Below are positions 6,200 through 17,062 of a DNA stretch of 21,094 bases, in pieces. The DNA lies in IMG/VR virus record IMGVR_UViG_3300021185_001873, positions 1 through 21,094 of that record; one strand, given 5' to 3'. This stretch comes from a virus. Below the pieces are notes generated by a model that did not search any database, was not told the DNA's origin, and saw only the letters and a list, made by a program, of their open reading frames with translations. The position numbers and the translations under genes were made by a program. Each line of letters starts with the position of its first letter. Positions within the stretch are counted from its first letter, which is position 1.

Positions 6200-7534
6200 T
6201 TACATAACTAAATTATCACTGTATCTGAACTTTACAGGGTACTTCCCACCTTCTGAGAGTATCTCTTCTAAATCAGATAAAGTATCTTTACCATCTTGTT
6301 TACTAAAGTCAAATAGAATAGAATCATAAGTGTATAAACTCACTTTAGTTTCTTTGTTCTGTAAGTACTTTAGTACTTTATACAAGATAGTGATATTTCT
6401 TGAGGTTTCCAAACTTTGCATCAAGTAATTCATAAGTTTCTGTGGATGCATATCCTTGAGTTTCTTAGTCAACTTTCTTCCAGAGACAGGATCTTCAATA
6501 AATCCTTCTAAATTGTAAAGTTTCCATAACTCATCAATAAACTTACCTATCTTTGAAAACAAAGGTATGTGTTTGTACTTGTCTGGTATCTTTCCATACA
6601 CTATCTGGAAGGTAATCTGTTTACCTTCATTGTATTGTTCTTCAGTTACCAGTTCAGTGTTGAAATAAATCTTGGCTAAATCAGTATGGGCAGACTTACC
6701 TTTGATAGGTTCACCTACTAACTCAGATAACAACCTAATATGGTAACCATCAAAGTCAAACTCTACAAAAATATCCTTGGAAGGTATGATAGTTGTTCTA
6801 TGATCACCTTTTTTAGGTATGGCTGCAAAGTTTACACTGTTGAAAGCGTTTGTTGGTCTGGAGGTTACATTGTAAGGGTTGTAGTAAGTGAATATCTTAC
6901 TTCCTTCCATAGAGTATTCAGGTACATTGGGTTTAAATAACTCAATAAACCTATCTCTATCAGTATTCAACCCAGATTGTTCCATTAGATAGTAAACTGA
7001 GGTGGAGATGTTGTTGTAGAACTTCCAAGGTTTAGTATCTATGACTTCTTCTGACCTTCTGATAACATCTTTTACACTTCTGTAGTTTCTTTCACTCCTT
7101 TCATGAAGTTTAGACAAAGGAATGATACTATTCAGGTCCTTTCTACCATAATACCTGTTGTAGTACCAGTTTATTGTGGAAGGTGGGTCAGGTAACTCTA
7201 ATATCTCATAATCTAACATAGAATAGACTAACTTTAGATCTACTACATTGTCTAAATGAAAGTGATAGAGGAGGTTTTTCTTATCAACTACATACTTGGT
7301 AGTGAAAGTAGAGAGAACCTCTCTAACCTTCTCTTTAGTTAGATTTAAACCCTCTGAGTGTTGTATTGGAAGAATAAATCCACTATCTTTAGATAAAGGT
7401 CTCACATACACACATACTGTGTCTGAGAGAGTGGCGTGAAACTGGTCGTTTTCTTGAATAATATCAAGAAATACCTCTCCTCCTATGGAAGATACCTTTT
7501 CTACTTGACTATCTGATTCACAAATCCAGAACAT
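6200..7534 (-). CDS. Divergent, short family-A DNA polymerase
   Basis: The C-terminal half carries the family-A polymerase motifs in order: TSRPTNAFN at 224-232 (equivalent of the TGRLSS region), motif A FDFDGYHIR with catalytic D260 and R267, motif B EGKQITFQIVYG with K305, F309, Y313 (matching K758, F762, Y766 of E. coli Pol I), NYLMQSLETS at 369-378 (equivalent of NAPMQGTAAD) and motif C YTYDSI with D404. Differences are notable: the motif A glutamate is H265, and the HDE of motif C is YDS. Residues 1-115 look like a worn 3'-5' exonuclease fold (FLDIIQEN where DxE is expected), so proofreading is probably absent. At 444 residues it is shorter than a usual Klenow fragment of about 600. It should synthesise DNA in this replication module; activity is unproven. 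Confidence 0.8.
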   Translation of the reverse strand: MFWICESDSQVEKVSSIGGEVFLDIIQENDQFHATLSDTVCVYVRPLSKDSGFILPIQHSEGLNLTKEKVREVLSTFTTKYVVDKKNLLYHFHLDNVVDLKLVYSMLDYEILELPDPPSTINWYYNRYYGRKDLNSIIPLSKLHERSERNYRSVKDVIRRSEEVIDTKPWKFYNNISTSVYYLMEQSGLNTDRDRFIELFKPNVPEYSMEGSKIFTYYNPYNVTSRPTNAFNSVNFAAIPKKGDHRTTIIPSKDIFVEFDFDGYHIRLLSELVGEPIKGKSAHTDLAKIYFNTELVTEEQYNEGKQITFQIVYGKIPDKYKHIPLFSKIGKFIDELWKLYNLEGFIEDPVSGRKLTKKLKDMHPQKLMNYLMQSLETSRNITILYKVLKYLQNKETKVSLYTYDSILFDFSKQDGKDTLSDLEEILSEGGKYPVKFRYSDNLVM

Positions 7535-7591: not shown

Positions 7592-8173
7592 TTATCTGAT
7601 AAATTCTGTAATTCCTTTTACATATGAACTCAGTCCAGGAAGTCTTTTATTACCTACCCTCAGTATCTTGGAGTTATCCTGAGTGGAGATCAGACTCCAT
7701 CTTAGTTTCAAGATATCATACTTAGGGTAATAGTATTTTGTAGTCTTACCTTCCATCTGTTCATATACCTCAGAACTTACTTCTTGAACTACTCCAGTAT
7801 TCTTATCCCTAACATAATATCTCATGAGGAATCCTTCTTCATAATCTAATTCACTAACCTTAGGGTAATAGTTCCTGATAGGATAAGTAGATTTTAGTTT
7901 GAAAGTATGTACATCCTGATGTAGTACATCATAATCTTCAACAATAGGAGGATAGGGAGTGTAATCAAACCTGTCATTAGGAGTAAAGTCCCTGACAAAA
8001 GTATTGTACTTCTGAATCTCTTTAGATAGTTTGTTAGGTTCTCCTTCAGTAAAATACCTTCCATCATGTGTTTCAAAATACAAACCTACATAATCTTCAT
8101 CAGTTCCTATGTATCTGAATTCATTACCAGGTGTGGTCAAGTTTCCTTTGTATTTAAATTTTGGTAAGTACAT
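7592..8173 (-). CDS. Probable virion-associated protein of unknown function
   Basis: This 193-residue protein is rich in tyrosine, aspartate and proline, without membrane segments or a signal peptide. It opens MYLPKFKYKGNLTTPGNEF followed by YIGTDEDYVGLYFETHDGRYFTEG (about 22-45). The 'TPG.EF...DYVG.YF...DGRYFTG' style resembles small beta-rich structural proteins found in T4-like marine phages, but I cannot name it. Its ATG at 8173 follows the hub gene stop by a single base (TAGGATG), so it is translationally coupled to the baseplate hub and probably belongs to the virion module. It is the last gene before the replication genes, and a 57-base gap with a weak hairpin follows. A baseplate or tail-fibre accessory role is inference. 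Confidence 0.7.
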   Translation of the reverse strand: MYLPKFKYKGNLTTPGNEFRYIGTDEDYVGLYFETHDGRYFTEGEPNKLSKEIQKYNTFVRDFTPNDRFDYTPYPPIVEDYDVLHQDVHTFKLKSTYPIRNYYPKVSELDYEEGFLMRYYVRDKNTGVVQEVSSEVYEQMEGKTTKYYYPKYDILKLRWSLISTQDNSKILRVGNKRLPGLSSYVKGITEFIR

Positions 8174-8174
8174 C

Positions 8175-11100
8175 CTATTGATTCTTTAGTACATGGAAGT
8201 GAAAATGATTTCCTGTGGCGTGGTTGGACTGTCCATCAGGAGTGTATTCATCCTTGAAGTAAACATCTTTCTGGTTTGCAAAGTGTGTTCCTATCCAGTT
8301 TGAGATTTCAATAAGAACTTTTGAATCACTATCCGGACCTAGCATTCTTGATCCTTCTCTAATAGTAAAGTCTAAACCTCTTCCGTGACGGTGCTGACTT
8401 GCTCTAGCGTATTCATGATGCCAGACGTCATTACCTGCAGTGATTCTAATATTGTACTTACTAAACCTACTATAAAATTCTTGTAGGAAAGAAACTGTTG
8501 TATCTGCTAAGAAAGGTTGAATATCTGCTCCGGAGGATAATTCATCTAAAGGATATTGTGATTTCTTCTTCTGCATTCCTCCTTTACTCTCATTGAGGAC
8601 TCTTACTCTATTAGCATTAGGAGTATCACCTGTCCATGGGGTATGTTCTGCTTTCTTAAGATTTGTATCCTTCACAGGATTTGTATCTTTGAAAGAAGTT
8701 TGATTAAAAGTAAGATCTCCTACTGCTCCTAATCTTGCACCAGTTGGTCTATTGTAAATCTGAGATTTTACTTCTGTAACCCATCCAGATGAGTCTACTT
8801 TGTGAGTTAGTCCAGTTATCAAGAATCCAAAGGTACCATCTCCTACATAACTCTCTGGTAAAATATTTTGATTGATTAGGAAACTGTCCATGACCTGCAT
8901 ACCAGAAATCCCTTCTATTTCTAATCCTAACTCAAATGGCAATATCCCTCCATAAGATCTATCCTTACCTTCTTCTAATAAAAGCTCTTTCGTCATCAAA
9001 GCGTATTCATTGATTACTCCAGGCAATGTCTCTTGTAGAGCAGTAAAGGACGGAGGGCCGTACACTTTTAGAAGGTACCCGATAGCAAGTGCACAATCTT
9101 TTTCTTTTTGCTCTCTCTTATCTCTTTGAGCCTGTAGTAGTCTGTCAAAGTCTGTTTTCTTCTCCGGTATGTACCTGTCTAATAGCCCAGCATTGAATCT
9201 TTCGAATAAGGTACCCTCAATTCCATTAGAGGTAGGATCTGCTTGAGCGGAGATTGCTATTTGTGTGGAGATACTTGGACTTAGTTTTGAGTTCATTGTT
9301 ACATTCCTCAAAATAGTATTCTTTCCTATTAGATTTAAAGCAATCTCAGATTCTGCAGTGTCTCCTACTAACTTCCTATCAACAACATGGAAGGTGAAAC
9401 TCTCTTCATGAAACTGAAGTGCTAACTCGTTTATTTGACCTGTAGCTAGATTGATGTCCTTTAGTATCTCATTTACAAGATCATACCCTCGTAGATCCCC
9501 GTTGCTCAATCCTTTTTCTACTAATCCAAATAAGTAATCTGTTTCAATAAAGATCTCTAAAATATCTCCTCTAGAAGCTTCTGTACTTAATTGTGCATAA
9601 GAGTCTGGGAGTATACATTTTGTAATATCCACAGATGCGTGTAAATCCTCTAAAGTCTTATATGAGTGCTTGTTTTTTTTACTTGTATTGAATTGAAATA
9701 AAGCTTCTGTAACTACGTTTTTTTTGTTCTTTAGTTGTGATTGAGGAATATACTTGTTTAAGATATCTAAAAAAGTACCTAGTTGAATGTAATAGTGAAA
9801 TGAGTCTGAGGTTCCTTCTCCTAACCGTCTTCTTACTGCTGCAACATTGTACTCAGAAGAGACTCCTACGTTAAGGTCAAAATCTAGATCTACTTGGAAT
9901 TCTTGATAAACTCTAGGTGCTTCAGGTCCTTTTAATTCTTCAAAAATACTTTTTCCTATTCTACGTCTAAGTAGATAAAGGGCTAAATGTATTCTTGAGG
10001 TAAACTGTTTTGAAGTGTTCAAGATAGTCTGTACAGATCTAATATCGGTAACTTCTACTGAGTTTGGTTCTATAGACATTACCCCCTCACGGGCAATTTG
10101 TTCGTTTATAGCGTTTTCTAGTACTTCCTGTGTTGTTGCTGTATTTACGGTTGGAGCGCCTATAGCTTCCTTGTTTATTGGAGTAAGATGAAAGATAGAG
10201 TTATCCTGTACTTGAGTTATACTCTTGTCTTTTTCTAGTGTATCTTTGATTTCAGTAAGAGGTATCCCGTTTGGGTACTTTTTGTTACCTTTATGAACAA
10301 AGCCATTAATCAAAGGTAGAAAGTCAGTTTCTTGGTGCTCTAATCTAAAATACTCATCTTCTCCGCCTTCAACTTTTACTACTATTTCTACTTGGTCAAA
10401 TCTCTGGTATACTTCTAGTTCATCTTTTGAAGCAAGAGTTGCTATACGTGGGGTACGGTTTTGGTTGGATGCAGGAGGAAGGTAATGAATAGATCCTAGT
10501 ATAGCTACTCGATAAGGAGAGGAGGAAGTATCTATTGCCCACACTATCCTGTTGTCGTACGTATTACCGTCAGATTTTCCACGTCTTAAGTTTTCCTTTA
10601 AGACGGCTTCAAAGCGGGAGCGCTTCCGTAAGTCGGAGTTTATTTTAGGTAATTGTTTTCTTATACCTTCTAGATAGGCGTTCTGTATAGCGGTTCCTTC
10701 TGTTTCAGTTCCTGAGGAAATGTCGAAGAGATCATCGGGTTTCTTTTGTATAATCTCAATATCTTTTCTATCTTCATCCTCTAGGTTGTAAAAGTAGAGT
10801 ACCTCTGAGGTGAGCATGTTTGCATTCAAAGTGAGAGATTCAATAACAGTTCCAATAGATACAATATCTACAGTACAGGAGTATCCTCCATCAGTTCTTA
10901 GAGCCCAACTGAAGTTTTTTATCAAACCATACATACCGTCGTAGTTATAGTCTGTTTTTCTTCTCATCTTTTCAATAGCTAGATAGATGGCTTGTTTACT
11001 CTGGTTTTGTATATCATCAGAATCAGATTCTTTGTCTAGGAAAGAACTTACTAGACTTTTATTGATAAAAGGTTCAGATAGTAAAGGTTCCATATCATAG

Positions 11101-13096: not shown

Positions 13097-15310
13097 TTAT
13101 TGAGTTTTATAGTTAGTTCCTAAAGTAAGTCCCATACCTACTTTATTACTATCTAAGAAGATCTCAGCTTTCCTTTGTGTCAACTCTTGCATAGTTTTTT
13201 GATATTCATCTGCTCTTTTCTGTTCAGCCTCTTCTCTAGCTTTTTCTGCTTTCTCTAAATGACCGGTAACTGCTCCAGCAATAATACCAATTCCTCCTCC
13301 GATAGCCATTCCCCATGGTCCAAACATTGATCCCATCATAGCTCCTTGAGCACCCATTGATACTCCTTTTGCTAAACCTGTTTTACCAGATTCAGCTAAT
13401 GAGTTTCCTATCATAGATCCTGCTGCACCTATTCCTGCTCCTACACCCATCGTAGCAAGCCTGCCTTTTGGTAGTTTTGAAAGTAAACCTCCTCCTCCAG
13501 ATCCTCCAGATCCTCCTACTCCTGCTTCTTTAGTGTAAAGAGGCATCATAGGATTGATACCTCTCATACCCTTGAACATTGAAGCTACAGTAGATATACC
13601 TACTAATGCAGTTGCTCCTACTACTGCCATCTTCCCTAAAGGAGAAGAAGCAAACTTTGCAAATAAATCTGCTAACTTAGTAACTAAAGGTGTTACCTGT
13701 ATTGCTATCTGTTTGAATGCATCTAACAACTTACCTGTAGCATCCTGGAATTTCTGATCTACTGAAGCTTCTTGATTTACTTCTAATAAAGCTTCACCTA
13801 AACTTTTAGTAGCTGATACTCTGGCTCTAGCAGTCTGTAACTGTTCTGCTGACATCTTGGCTGCTACCTCTTCATTAGCTGCTAATGCTTCTGATTTCAA
13901 TAACATCTCTGCCATCTGATCAGAATTCATACCCATGGATTTTGCTAAAGACTCTCTAGCAATAACATTCATGTTTTCAAACTCTGTGATAGTTCCTACT
14001 TGGGATGCTATCTCTCTAGTAAGTGTTAGTTGGTCTCCTTGTAGAGCAGCCATCCTAGCTCTCTCAAAGTTCAACTGTTTACCAGTTAGTACCTCTGCTT
14101 CTAACTCCGCCTGGATAGAAGATTCAAAGTCTAACATAGAAGAGGCAATGTTCTCTATCTGGGAGAACTCTAAACCTAACTTCTTAGCTTCAGCAACCAT
14201 CTTTCCTAACTGCTGAGGACTTCTTCTTAAAGTAAGATAAGTAGATGCAGATGCTGAACCTATAGTTTCAAATGCTTCACTTAGAGATACATTTACTCCT
14301 AATGCTTTATTTGATTCTACTACTGATTGAGCTAAACTGCTCTGAAATTCATCAGAAGACATTGCAGTACTCTCTGTTAGTAAAGCTAGCCTGGAAGCAG
14401 CTCCTTCAGATACTCCCATGTATTCAGTTAGCTTGGTAAAGTTCGCTAAAGTCTCTCCTGAGAATTCTACACCTAACTTCAATTCTTTAGCTAAAGAGTT
14501 CTGTGCTGCTGCTAACTTTGTAGAGTTTATTCTTGAGTCTCTTGAGTCTTCTGCAAACTTTGCAAACCCTTTTTGCATCTCTGTAGCAGAATCTAAACTA
14601 ACACCTAAGTTAGTACTGAGTGCTTTAGTCTCCTTAGCAGCAGTCATTACATTTGCTAGTAATGCGGCAGGACCTAGATTCTTACCTAACTGCATTGCTG
14701 CTGCTGCAGCTCCTTGTAGTTTAGCAGATAAAGGACCTGCTCCATTTGCTACTGCTTTCTCAGCTACTTTACCAGCTTCAGCTAAAGGTCCGGCTATGAG
14801 TCCTCCAATAAGAGGTATCTCAGCAAACTTCTCTGAGAGGGCAGCAAACTTCTCTCCTGCTTTTACTATCTCTTTTGTAGTTTCAGCTACCTGAGCAGTT
14901 GCTGTTGCTTGTGCTTCAACTGCTTCTACAGTGTCATAGATACCTCTGAGTAGAGTTCTATATCCTGCTATCTCATCATCAGTAGCAGTACTTATTCTAG
15001 CTAATACTATCTCTTTCTCAATCTCAAGATCTAACATCTGTTGTTTGATCTCTTGATTCTTCTTGAGGATCTTTTCGTAATCTCTCTCTCCCTCTACTGT
15101 ATTATAAACCTCTGAGGAAATGTCTCTGTAAGCAGAGGCAGCTTTACTGATAGACTTAGCAACGTCTCCTGCGATCTCTCCAGCTTCACCTTTGAGGTTC
15201 TTCAAGGAGTTAGACATAGAAGTAAGAGCTTGAGCTGTTGCTCTCATCTCCACTGCTGCGTCCTTAGTCTCTACTCTACCTAAAGGTTTTGATTTATCTT
15301 CTTCTGCCAT
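13097..15310 (-). CDS. Tail tape measure protein
   Basis: This 737-residue protein is alanine-rich and mostly helical, with a coiled-coil N-terminal part (about 15-160). It has several glycine/alanine hydrophobic stretches (about 165-180, 560-580, 618-635, 664-682), a GGSGGSGGGG linker near 600, and a charged helix close to the C-terminus (LEKAEKAREEAEQKRADEY). These are hallmarks of tape measure proteins, which set tail length inside the tube and help deliver DNA through the host membrane. It follows the gp26-like/gp51-like pair, the position of the tape measure chaperones in many tailed phages, and precedes the tube-initiator gene. It would correspond in role to T4 gp29. By the usual rule of about 0.15 nm per residue it would suit a tail of roughly 110 nm. 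A CTATTTATA motif lies 17 bases before the ATG. Confidence 0.88.
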   Translation of the reverse strand: MAEEDKSKPLGRVETKDAAVEMRATAQALTSMSNSLKNLKGEAGEIAGDVAKSISKAASAYRDISSEVYNTVEGERDYEKILKKNQEIKQQMLDLEIEKEIVLARISTATDDEIAGYRTLLRGIYDTVEAVEAQATATAQVAETTKEIVKAGEKFAALSEKFAEIPLIGGLIAGPLAEAGKVAEKAVANGAGPLSAKLQGAAAAAMQLGKNLGPAALLANVMTAAKETKALSTNLGVSLDSATEMQKGFAKFAEDSRDSRINSTKLAAAQNSLAKELKLGVEFSGETLANFTKLTEYMGVSEGAASRLALLTESTAMSSDEFQSSLAQSVVESNKALGVNVSLSEAFETIGSASASTYLTLRRSPQQLGKMVAEAKKLGLEFSQIENIASSMLDFESSIQAELEAEVLTGKQLNFERARMAALQGDQLTLTREIASQVGTITEFENMNVIARESLAKSMGMNSDQMAEMLLKSEALAANEEVAAKMSAEQLQTARARVSATKSLGEALLEVNQEASVDQKFQDATGKLLDAFKQIAIQVTPLVTKLADLFAKFASSPLGKMAVVGATALVGISTVASMFKGMRGINPMMPLYTKEAGVGGSGGSGGGGLLSKLPKGRLATMGVGAGIGAAGSMIGNSLAESGKTGLAKGVSMGAQGAMMGSMFGPWGMAIGGGIGIIAGAVTGHLEKAEKAREEAEQKRADEYQKTMQELTQRKAEIFLDSNKVGMGLTLGTNYKTQ

Positions 15311-15338: not shown

Positions 15339-15359
15339 AACCTCTAACTTCTAGAGGTT
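15339..15359 (-). other. Hairpin across the gp51-like stop codon
   Basis: On the minus strand AACCTCTA, a five-base loop GAAGT and TAGAGGTT form an 8-bp stem whose 3' arm begins with the gp51-like stop codon (15346-15344). The stem is followed by TCTCTATTTATA, not a pure T tract, so it is a poor terminator. It could be a weak attenuator or an mRNA-stabilising or processing structure. Confidence 0.45.
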
Positions 15360-15676
15360 CTCGTTGAATAATTTGGTTTAATGTCTGGTCCCTTAGGAAT
15401 AGAGGCTTCAGAAGATACCTCCTGTACATTATTAGATTTATTCATAGCTTCTTTGTGAGCTGCTTGTTCTTTATCGTAAAACTCTTCAATAGTCTTGAAA
15501 GTGTACTTTCTCAACCAGATCGGCATATTGTAAACAGTACCCCAATCATATCCTCCTTTTCCATGAAAAACTATCTCATGAACCTGTTGGAATACATTCT
15601 TACGATAATCAGGCGTCAGGCCAAAAAAAGTTGATCCCGATAGGCAGAGTGACCTCCTCATCACTTCCATCATCAT
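15344..15676 (-). CDS. gp51-like hub/tape-measure chaperone part, probably made by frameshift from the gp26-like gene
   Basis: The frame is open from an ATG at 15676, but its first about 20 residues (MMMEVMRRSLCLSGST) merely shadow the gp26-like gene and look non-natural. Recognisable protein begins at FFGLTPDYRKN and continues with VFQQVHEIVFHGKGGYDW, VYNMPIWLRKYTF and a charged tail. This resembles the short gp51-like 'hub assembly' proteins of T4-like marine phages. The conserved part starts exactly where the seven-T run (15629-15623) lets ribosomes leave the gp26-like frame by +1 or -2, so the natural product is probably a gp26-gp51 fusion. No plausible independent start with a ribosome site lies just before FFGLTP. 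In position it equals the T part of lambda G/GT, next to the tape measure gene. The stop lies inside a hairpin. The role as chaperone is inferred from family and position. Confidence 0.75.
   Translation of the reverse strand: MMMEVMRRSLCLSGSTFFGLTPDYRKNVFQQVHEIVFHGKGGYDWGTVYNMPIWLRKYTFKTIEEFYDKEQAAHKEAMNKSNNVQEVSSEASIPKGPDIKPNYSTRTSRS
15609..15658 (-). other. Candidate programmed frameshift site (T7 run with upstream AGGAGG)
   Basis: The minus strand reads AGGAGG at 15658-15653, then 23 bases later AAC-TTT-TTT-TGG with seven Ts at 15629-15623, and the zero-frame TGA at 15611-15609. Both frames read Phe-Phe across the T run. A peptidyl-tRNA on the second TTT can move +1 to another TTT and continue GGC-CTG-ACG, or move -2 and add one more Phe. 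Either joins the gp26-like frame to the gp51-like frame. The AGGAGG is striking in a genome that otherwise lacks such sequences, though it also encodes Glu-Glu and lies farther away than usual stimulators. Confidence 0.6.
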
Positions 15677-16340
15677 AAGTGTAAGTAAACTTCAGATCTA
15701 CATCAGGAGAAACTCTTACATACTCTTCTCTCAATGCTCTAGCATCTTGTGCTAATAGATATCCATCTACAAACTTTCTAATGTCTGCTCTCTCCCTATT
15801 ACCGTTGATTGCTACAATCATATGTTTCAACCTAGTAGTAACTTCTGGAACATCATTCTTGTTGATCTTCTGTAAACCTTTGATCTCTTGATCAATAGAT
15901 AACTCGTCTCCGTGAGTAAATACCTTGAAGATAACTTCGTAACCTGATTTTGGTAACTTCACAGGAAACTCTTTACTCTCTCTCTGATACTCTACCTCAT
16001 GTGGTTTAGCATCTAATAAAGATAGATCTACTTCTACCTGCTCTCCATTGTACTCTACTGGGTAATCCTTTCCATAAGATAAAATACGAGCAGCTATCAT
16101 AATAGCATTCTTATCTCCTACTAATAGATCATTGTAGTCAAACTCTGTTACTAGTAATGACTTCAATAACTTATCAATAACAGTTCCGTTCTTGATGTAG
16201 TTCTGATTGGTAAGGATATCTTCCTCTTTAGCAGTCATGTATTTCATCTCTACTTCTCCTGATGCTAAAGGATGTCCTTCAGGGTAAAGTAAACCTTTGG
16301 AAGGTAACTCGATGATCTCTGTGGGTAATGTAAACTCCAT
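15609..16340 (-). CDS. gp26-like baseplate hub / tape-measure chaperone protein
   Basis: This 243-residue protein matches the T4 gp26-like family of baseplate hub assembly proteins as seen in marine T4-like phages. It begins TLPTEIIELPSKGLLYPEGH (a 'PS.G..YP' signature), followed by VEMKYMTAKEEDILTNQNYI and KNGTVIDKLLKSLL (about 30-65). Later come a middle beta region (EVIFKVFTHGDELSI) and LPIGINFFWPDA at the end. In T4, gp26 acts with gp51 in central hub assembly. In many other tailed phages the equivalent position holds tape-measure chaperones. The final codons pass through a run of seven Ts, from which the gp51-like frame can be reached. The ATG at 16340 follows an AT-rich gap with a terminator and a TATTTATA motif, so transcription may restart here. 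Family call is good; chaperone role is inference. Confidence 0.82.
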   Translation of the reverse strand: MEFTLPTEIIELPSKGLLYPEGHPLASGEVEMKYMTAKEEDILTNQNYIKNGTVIDKLLKSLLVTEFDYNDLLVGDKNAIMIAARILSYGKDYPVEYNGEQVEVDLSLLDAKPHEVEYQRESKEFPVKLPKSGYEVIFKVFTHGDELSIDQEIKGLQKINKNDVPEVTTRLKHMIVAINGNRERADIRKFVDGYLLAQDARALREEYVRVSPDVDLKFTYTYDDGSDEEVTLPIGINFFWPDA

Positions 16341-16435: not shown

Positions 16436-17062
16436 TTACTTTTCAGAATACTTTCTTTCGTATGTCTTTTGACAGTTACCGTATTCTTTGTGAAGACCTT
16501 TTACAATCTTCTTCATCTCATTCATCTTTCTATTATCGATAATACCTGCTAAAGAAGTGTCTTCTTCTAAAGAGTTGATCTTAGATTCGTATGCTGCAAT
16601 AATCTCTGAGATGACCTCTAACTGCATCTCCATTGCTCCTTTACTACAAGTTCTTTCTATGATCTTTGCTACCTCTTCTGCTGTAGTACCTTTTAGAGCT
16701 TCTTGAACATATTCTTTTACCTCATCAGAAACTTCAGTAGATACTTCTACCTCTGGCATCATTTCGCCTTCCTCAACTTCTTCTTCAGTATTCTCTCCTA
16801 AATGAGATGCATCAATATCCATTGGTGCTAATGCTTTCTCTATCTCACCACATAAATACTGTGCGACATCTTCTGCATAAAACATCTCACCACTGTCTTG
16901 ATGATCTTGGTAAATGTCTTTTGCACACTGTAAGAACTTCTCTAATAAAGGTTGACTTGTTAGTCCCTCTATTCTGTCCTTAGTGTCTTGATCTTCTGCT
17001 AACATACTAACTGAGGTTAGTTTGTTTTCTGTCAAGAACTTTCTGATATTGAAGTTATCCAT
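16436..17062 (-). CDS. Acidic helical protein of unknown function, possible prohead-targeted or tail-assembly protein
   Basis: I do not recognise a named family. The 208 residues are strongly acidic and helical. The N-terminus MDNFNIRKFLTENKLTS is followed by helices (residues 30-80), a glutamate-rich stretch near 90-110 (ENTEEEVEEGEMMPEVEV), and more helices with a charged, basic C-terminus (KTYERKYSEK). The opening resembles the capsid-targeting sequences of T4 internal proteins (short, with F..F(L/I).E), and FLTE|N fits the LxE preference of the T4-type prohead protease. This is a pattern match only. Four cysteines are present, with no signal peptide or membrane segment. It starts 8 bases after the tail tube gene and is followed by a strong terminator, so it is co-expressed with sheath and tube. 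A tail-assembly chaperone or virion protein are the alternatives. Confidence 0.7.
   Translation of the reverse strand: MDNFNIRKFLTENKLTSVSMLAEDQDTKDRIEGLTSQPLLEKFLQCAKDIYQDHQDSGEMFYAEDVAQYLCGEIEKALAPMDIDASHLGENTEEEVEEGEMMPEVEVSTEVSDEVKEYVQEALKGTTAEEVAKIIERTCSKGAMEMQLEVISEIIAAYESKINSLEEDTSLAGIIDNRKMNEMKKIVKGLHKEYGNCQKTYERKYSEK

Follow-up and report, generated by a model that had tools for sequence, protein, structure and literature searches.

A conserved candidate +1 frameshift site linking gp26-like and gp51-like tail assembly chaperone sequences in T4-like phages

The window analyzed here is the whole of a 21,094-nucleotide stretch of viral DNA (positions 1 to 21,094 of IMG/VR record IMGVR_UViG_3300021185_001873). 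On its minus strand, a gp26-like open reading frame (ORF; 16340-15609) overlaps a second, gp51-like frame that ends at position 15344. The gp26-like gene, a putative short tail assembly chaperone (TAC-N), encodes 243 amino acids ending in NFFWPDA and is closed by a TGA at 15609-15611. The gp51-like C-terminal domain (TAC-C; 15344-15622) occupies 92 codons plus a stop in the +1 frame, and recognizable protein in this frame extends from FFGLTPDYRKN to a TAG at 15346-15344. The two frames meet at a run of seven Ts (15623-15629), which begins with a TTT codon (15629-15627) and is followed by the conserved GGCCTGAC (15615-15622), a sequence that codes in both frames (for WPD and GLT). The offset from the gp26-like to the gp51-like frame is +1, which is arithmetically the same as -2, and a +1 slip would give a fusion of the two parts with a computed length of 331 amino acids. 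Upstream of the run lie a Shine-Dalgarno-like AGGAGG (15653-15658; 23 nt from the run), which is a candidate stimulator, and a GGG glycine codon (15636-15638; beginning 9 nt before the run), which is another candidate element. The T run, the AGGAGG, and the +1/-2 geometry agree with a preliminary description of the window, and the positions of both stop codons and of the tape-measure start were confirmed as well.

The gene directly downstream (13097-15310, minus strand, start ATG at 15310; 737 amino acids) occupies the position of a tape-measure gene, and its homolog in Flavobacterium phage immuto is annotated as a tail tape measure protein. Upstream, a minus-strand gene at 17071-17556 matches a tail tube family (phrog_4542; E = 3.8e-22). 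The order of genes in the window (sheath, tube, one unknown gene, gp26, gp51, and tape measure) matches that of immuto, and the junction has the tail tube gene on one side and the tape-measure gene on the other, as in G/GT systems. Several other features of the region were recorded. An acidic ORF of 208 amino acids (16436-17062) follows the tail tube gene and precedes the chaperone genes, at a place where the immuto record has no annotated gene. A hairpin that resembles a terminator (ACCTAG...CTAGGT followed by a T run; 16410-16383) separates this ORF from the gp26-like gene, and another terminator-like hairpin (15360-15338) spans the gp51 stop codon ahead of the tape-measure gene. Near the T4-like tail module, a 444-amino-acid protein (6200-7534) has a weak, below-cut-off match to family A DNA polymerase.

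The gp26-like part matches the Pfam family PF12322 (T4_baseplate; E = 1.6e-8, 35 bits against a cut-off of 24.5) and phrog_150 (baseplate hub; E = 1.1e-11), and by these matches the protein is a member of the T4 gp26 family. A Pfam search with the gp51-like part alone returned no match. In T4 itself, where genes 26 and 51 lie at 7803-8429 and 8480-9229 of sequence L087, both proteins match PF12322 along the entire family model (E = 9e-64 for gp26 and 4e-52 for gp51); on the 282 positions of phrog_150, gp26 covers 14-235 and gp51 covers 13-280. Since both proteins match both families, T4 gp51 is, as judged from these alignments, a paralog of gp26 with an added C-terminal domain. The entire fusion thus has its T4 equivalent in gp51, and the short form in gp26. 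The kinship of gp26 and gp51 with the tape-measure chaperone pair, which the preliminary description had suggested, thus stands and is already in the literature; its picture of T4 gp51 as the C-terminal half alone does not, as T4 gp51 is a full gp26 paralog plus a domain. The link between the window's genes and T4 gp26 and gp51 is drawn through Pfam and PHROGs, and our own gp26 profile did not retrieve either T4 protein. The family of the T4 gp51 C-terminal domain (phrog_634) was matched by 4 of 49 members, with a best E-value of 0.0042.

The two halves were modeled separately. The AlphaFold2 model of the gp26-like protein (pLDDT 90.7) is similar to many predicted phage baseplate-hub proteins. 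In a VIA-align comparison, its top match in the PDB was the HK97 tail assembly chaperone (2ob9; Z = 5.0 over 98 residues, with the runner-up at 4.5), a modest resemblance between a predicted and an experimental entry for which Foldseek gave an E-value of 0.82 and a probability of 0.57. A sequence search of the PDB with the gp26 profile found nothing above chance level. The gp51-like part is predicted to form three helices plus a loose tail (pLDDT 73.7).

We gathered relatives through patterns in the body of gp26, independently of the junction, and obtained 151 distinct gp26 genes in 100 clusters at 80 per cent identity. The gp51 domain was located with a profile trained on +1-frame peptides from part of this set, with the loci collected later lying outside the training. 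Of the 151 genes, 145 gave a match in the +1 frame and 2 in the -1 frame, while the remaining 4 genes, which are incomplete or too divergent, could not be scored. Such an offset in 145 of 151 genes is far beyond chance. A -1 site of the X_XXY_YYZ type is not what these genes carry, as in both of the -1-frame matches gp51 has its own ATG after the stop codon. Nearly all of the 145 relatives share the TTTTTTTGGCCTGA junction. The exact TTTTTTTGGCCTGAC junction occurs in 119 of the 151 genes, and 9 further genes have another form of TTTTTTTGG, for a total of 128; the T run and the +1/-2 offset are conserved in the alignment of relatives that the preliminary description had proposed as a check. 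Four genes have TTTCTTTGG, and TTCTTTTGG and TTTCTATTC are further variants that keep the offset. Among isolates, the same offset is present in Flavobacterium phage immuto (with TTTCTTTGG), Microcystis phage Mel-JY01, Rhodothermus phage RM378, Bacillus phage SP-15, and Listeria phage LIS04. In some records the annotation misses gp51 or gives it a wrong start, as in immuto, with a 36-amino-acid ORF, and in LIS04, with none.

Six Ts would join the two frames into one continuous gene, an error that the preliminary description had named as fatal to its reading. The offset, however, recurs in the isolates immuto, Mel-JY01, RM378, and SP-15 and, over many metagenomes, in a total of 145 distinct relatives, and the variants without a long homopolymer (TTTCTTTGG and TTCTTTTGG) refute such an error, to which we assign a negligible probability. 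Transcriptional slippage on the run, which would supply a mixed mRNA for both products, is compatible with the low rate at which homopolymers of seven bases can slip, but the offset is kept in variants in which the run is cut to four Ts or fewer. Because these short-run variants keep the offset, a homopolymer error is excluded and transcriptional slippage is very unlikely.

Another reading is that gp51 is translated from a start of its own in the +1 frame and that the T run is incidental. In the window, no stop closes the +1 frame ahead of the run, and ATG codons occur there from 15676 onward, so that this single sequence, in which the preliminary description saw no convincing gp51 start, leaves room for one. 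The relatives argue against it: in 41 of 94 lineages, the stretch of the +1 frame that separates its last stop from the slip codon contains no ATG, GTG, or TTG. Many +1 frames are closed two codons before the run, and in 10 of the 94 lineages the frame is open for only two codons before the slip codon. The preliminary description had also listed relatives with a separate gp51 gene as evidence that would count against it, and there are two such lineages (L202 and L207), in which gp51 begins at an ATG of its own directly behind the gp26 stop (near position 2205). Both have lost the T run, as expected if the run serves the shift. The two lineages are natural controls, and their escape from recoding is nested inside the +1 clade. 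We left LR756511 out of the +1 counts, since its downstream ORF has its own ATG after the stop; in this sequence (L297, near 2268), the gp26-like ORF has a different end and the ATG of the downstream ORF overlaps the stop region. With both kinds of evidence considered, independent translation of gp51 has a very small probability, similar to that of transcriptional slippage. Sequence comparison thus establishes the junction, its +1 offset and conservation, the missing starts in many relatives, and the homology to T4 gp26 and gp51.

Pairing rules were used to assign the direction of the slip and the slip codon. Five junctions, TTC TTT TGG (11 distinct genes of one lineage), TTT CTT TGG, TTT TTT TAC, TTT TTT TTC, and TTT CTT TAC, can each be explained by a slip of UUU or CUU in the P site onto UUU. 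Three others, TTC TTT CGT (GXN1), TTT CTA TTC (LR756508), and TTT TTT CAC (SP-15), fit a move of UUU to UUC, with LR756508 allowing good pairing only for its first codon. In the window, these variants point to the TTT at 15626-15624 as the candidate P-site codon, re-pairing at 15625-15623. The usual zero-frame A-site codon across the sites is UGG, UAC, UUC, or CGU. A ribosomal -2 shift, for which phage Mu provides a precedent (PMC5009743), obeys the same frame arithmetic and would give NFFFGLTP rather than NFFGLTP; TTTTTTT permits re-pairing two bases back, and the seven-T form taken alone is compatible with it. In the TTC TTT TGG lineage and in GXN1, however, a -2 shift would force tRNA-Phe onto UCU, and in LR756508 it would force a Leu tRNA onto UUC, whereas a +1 shift fits all three. 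Because the variant junctions pair well with +1 and poorly with -2, a +1 slip of P-site UUU or CUU onto UUU or UUC is favored, and the Mu-like alternative appears improbable. The programmed shift that the preliminary description had proposed between the gp26-like and gp51-like parts is strongly supported by comparison with the relatives, with +1 now preferred over -2.

Codon usage near the site was compared with the rest of gp26, with one representative per 80 per cent cluster. Proline at the junction is CCT in 92 of 92 cases vs 39 per cent elsewhere (P = 3e-35) and aspartate is GAC in 85 of 85 cases vs 22 per cent elsewhere (P = 5e-53), although these and the following Fisher tests ignore shared descent and their P-values overstate the evidence. 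Both biases are largely explained by coding in two frames, a constraint that in turn indicates translation of the +1 frame from the T run onward. Tryptophan, which occurs at only 6 codons in the rest of gp26 over all representatives, is nearly fixed at the junction. Dual-frame coding is no explanation for three other biases, whose P-values are likewise inflated by shared descent: GAG over GAA at the two glutamate codons of an upstream GAGGAG (88:19 vs 396:1483 elsewhere; P = 1e-38), GGG in 45 of 67 glycine codons at -9 (vs 11 per cent; P = 7e-25), and AAC in 50 of 50 asparagine codons at -3 (vs 33 per cent; P = 6e-24). GGAGG occurs in 64 of the 95 lineages, whereas none of the 80 cyanophage -1 loci has it at the matching place. 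Consistent with these counts, GGAGG and GGG appear to be under synonymous selection in the relatives and are candidate signals that look new. The suggestion that AGGAGG stimulates the shift gains from this selection and loses from its distance of 23 nt, which is too great for any known mechanism and unlike that of known stimulators; a role for it is tentative. A search for conserved RNA structure around the junction found none (consensus energy -0.28 kcal/mol).

Taken together, these comparisons make it very probable that one gene specifies two tail assembly chaperones through a programmed +1 frameshift; the sequence signature expected of two such products with a common N-terminus is present in 145 of 151 relatives. 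Most ribosomes would read the gp26-like frame to the TGA at 15611 and release the short TAC-N of 243 amino acids. In a fraction of ribosomes, tRNA-Phe in the P site would re-pair from UUU at 15626-15624 to UUU at 15625-15623, while UGG occupies the zero-frame A site, and translation would continue in the +1 frame to the TAG at 15346. The resulting long form (TAC-NC; 331 amino acids, with NFF-GLTP at the seam) would bear the gp51-like helical domain. By analogy with lambda G/GT, coating of the tape-measure protein may fall to the short form, and recruitment of tail tube subunits to the long form. That the shift occurs, how efficient it is, at which codon it happens, what stimulates it, and that the products act as chaperones are inferred from the sequence evidence. 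A sense codon in the zero-frame A site and the lack of a conserved RNA structure as a driver of efficiency weigh against this mechanism.

A review of tail-chaperone recoding covers shifts of -1, -2, and +1 and names T4 as an exception (PMC5009743). As in lambda (G/GT), P2 (E/E'), and Mu, a short and a long chaperone would come from one mRNA that adjoins the tape-measure gene (PMC5009743); lambda and P2 use -1 and Mu uses -2 at other slip sites, whereas the shift here would be +1. The haloarchaeal myovirus HSTV-2, an archaeal virus, is described as very likely to use +1 as well (PMC5009743). In the slip itself, the sites resemble prfB, which encodes RF2 and in which a P-site CUU, rarely UUU, slips onto UUU (PMC12421855), as would occur at TTT CTT TGG. 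In prfB, however, a stop codon occupies the A site and an SD-like element lies 3 nt from the slip, whereas the sites described here have UGG, UAC, UUC, or CGU in the A site and an SD-like element at least 23 nt away, and are thus not of the prfB type. T4 gp26 and gp51 belong to the same family and gene boundary, with gp26 corresponding to the short form and gp51 to the long form, but they are two separate paralogous genes, in contrast to a +1 shift at TTT TTT TGG. T4-like gp26 and gp51 have been described as short and long tail assembly chaperone genes (Vladimirov et al. 2022, Virology 566:9-15, as cited in PMC10274946), and -1 poly-T signals have been reported in other T4-like phages (Vladimirov et al. 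2022, as cited in PMC12846349). The reading of gp26 and gp51 as a tail-chaperone pair is therefore right and largely published already. Our literature search found no description of a +1 site in T4-like phages, though Vladimirov et al. (2022) may already note +1 cases, and a conserved +1 shift site with a sense codon in the A site looks new for these phages.

The -1 relatives have their gp26-gp51 junction at a T-rich FF motif too, usually before the tape-measure gene, but they differ in using the canonical T_TTT_TTC. In cyanophage P-SSM2, the same boundary reads AGT TTT TTC GTA TAA, with gp51 in the -1 frame. All 80 cyanophage-type contigs have T_TTT_TTC, and each distinct contig that was read through has gp51 in the -1 frame. 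The same motif and frame are found in pf16, Aeh1, Cronobacter phage S13, Pelagibacter phage HTVC008M, Rhizobium and Agrobacterium phages, and Vibrio phage K575, with T_TTT_TTT or T_TTT_TTG in a few of the -1 phages. Cyanophage gp51 has a conserved ATG just past the junction, and a separate start is a possible alternative to the -1 shift there; Aeh1, S13, and pf16 have no such ATG. In a profile comparison (hhalign), the gp51 domain of the +1 phages aligned with that of the -1 phages at an E-value of 9.5e-6 over 37 columns.

In the gp26 tree, the +1 phages fall together in a single nested group, whose nearest outgroup is a lineage with a -1 junction at T_TTT_TTC (L212). T4 gp26 and gp51 pair with each other (support 97/84) near Straboviridae -1 phages, and long branches (T4 gp51, RM378, and L212) leave the deep order of the tree unsure. 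The tree is consistent with a single switch from -1 to +1, which is apparently new. GXN1 (L006; +1 at TTC TTT CGT) and L212 are distant relatives that flank the switch and help to place it. The sites may represent a distinct class of bacterial +1 signal, defined by a P-site UUU or CUU moving onto UUU or UUC, a sense codon in the A site, GGAGG and GGG at 23-27 nt and some 9 nt upstream of the T run, and an invariant CCUGA downstream. Such a class would have a single origin, in a -1 site of this gene boundary, and would now be shared by T4-like phages of Flavobacterium, Rhodothermus, Bacillus, and other hosts, which make up a wide clade; we regard this proposal as evenly balanced.

These comparisons suggest that the direction of chaperone recoding can flip from -1 to +1, and that recoding can yield to gene duplication, as in T4, or to separate genes, as in L202 and L207. 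Both protein parts are kept throughout, which suggests that selection holds the pair of products and not any one recoding mechanism. The aligned relatives also make up a large natural data set with which to dissect how +1 frameshifting takes place at a sense codon.
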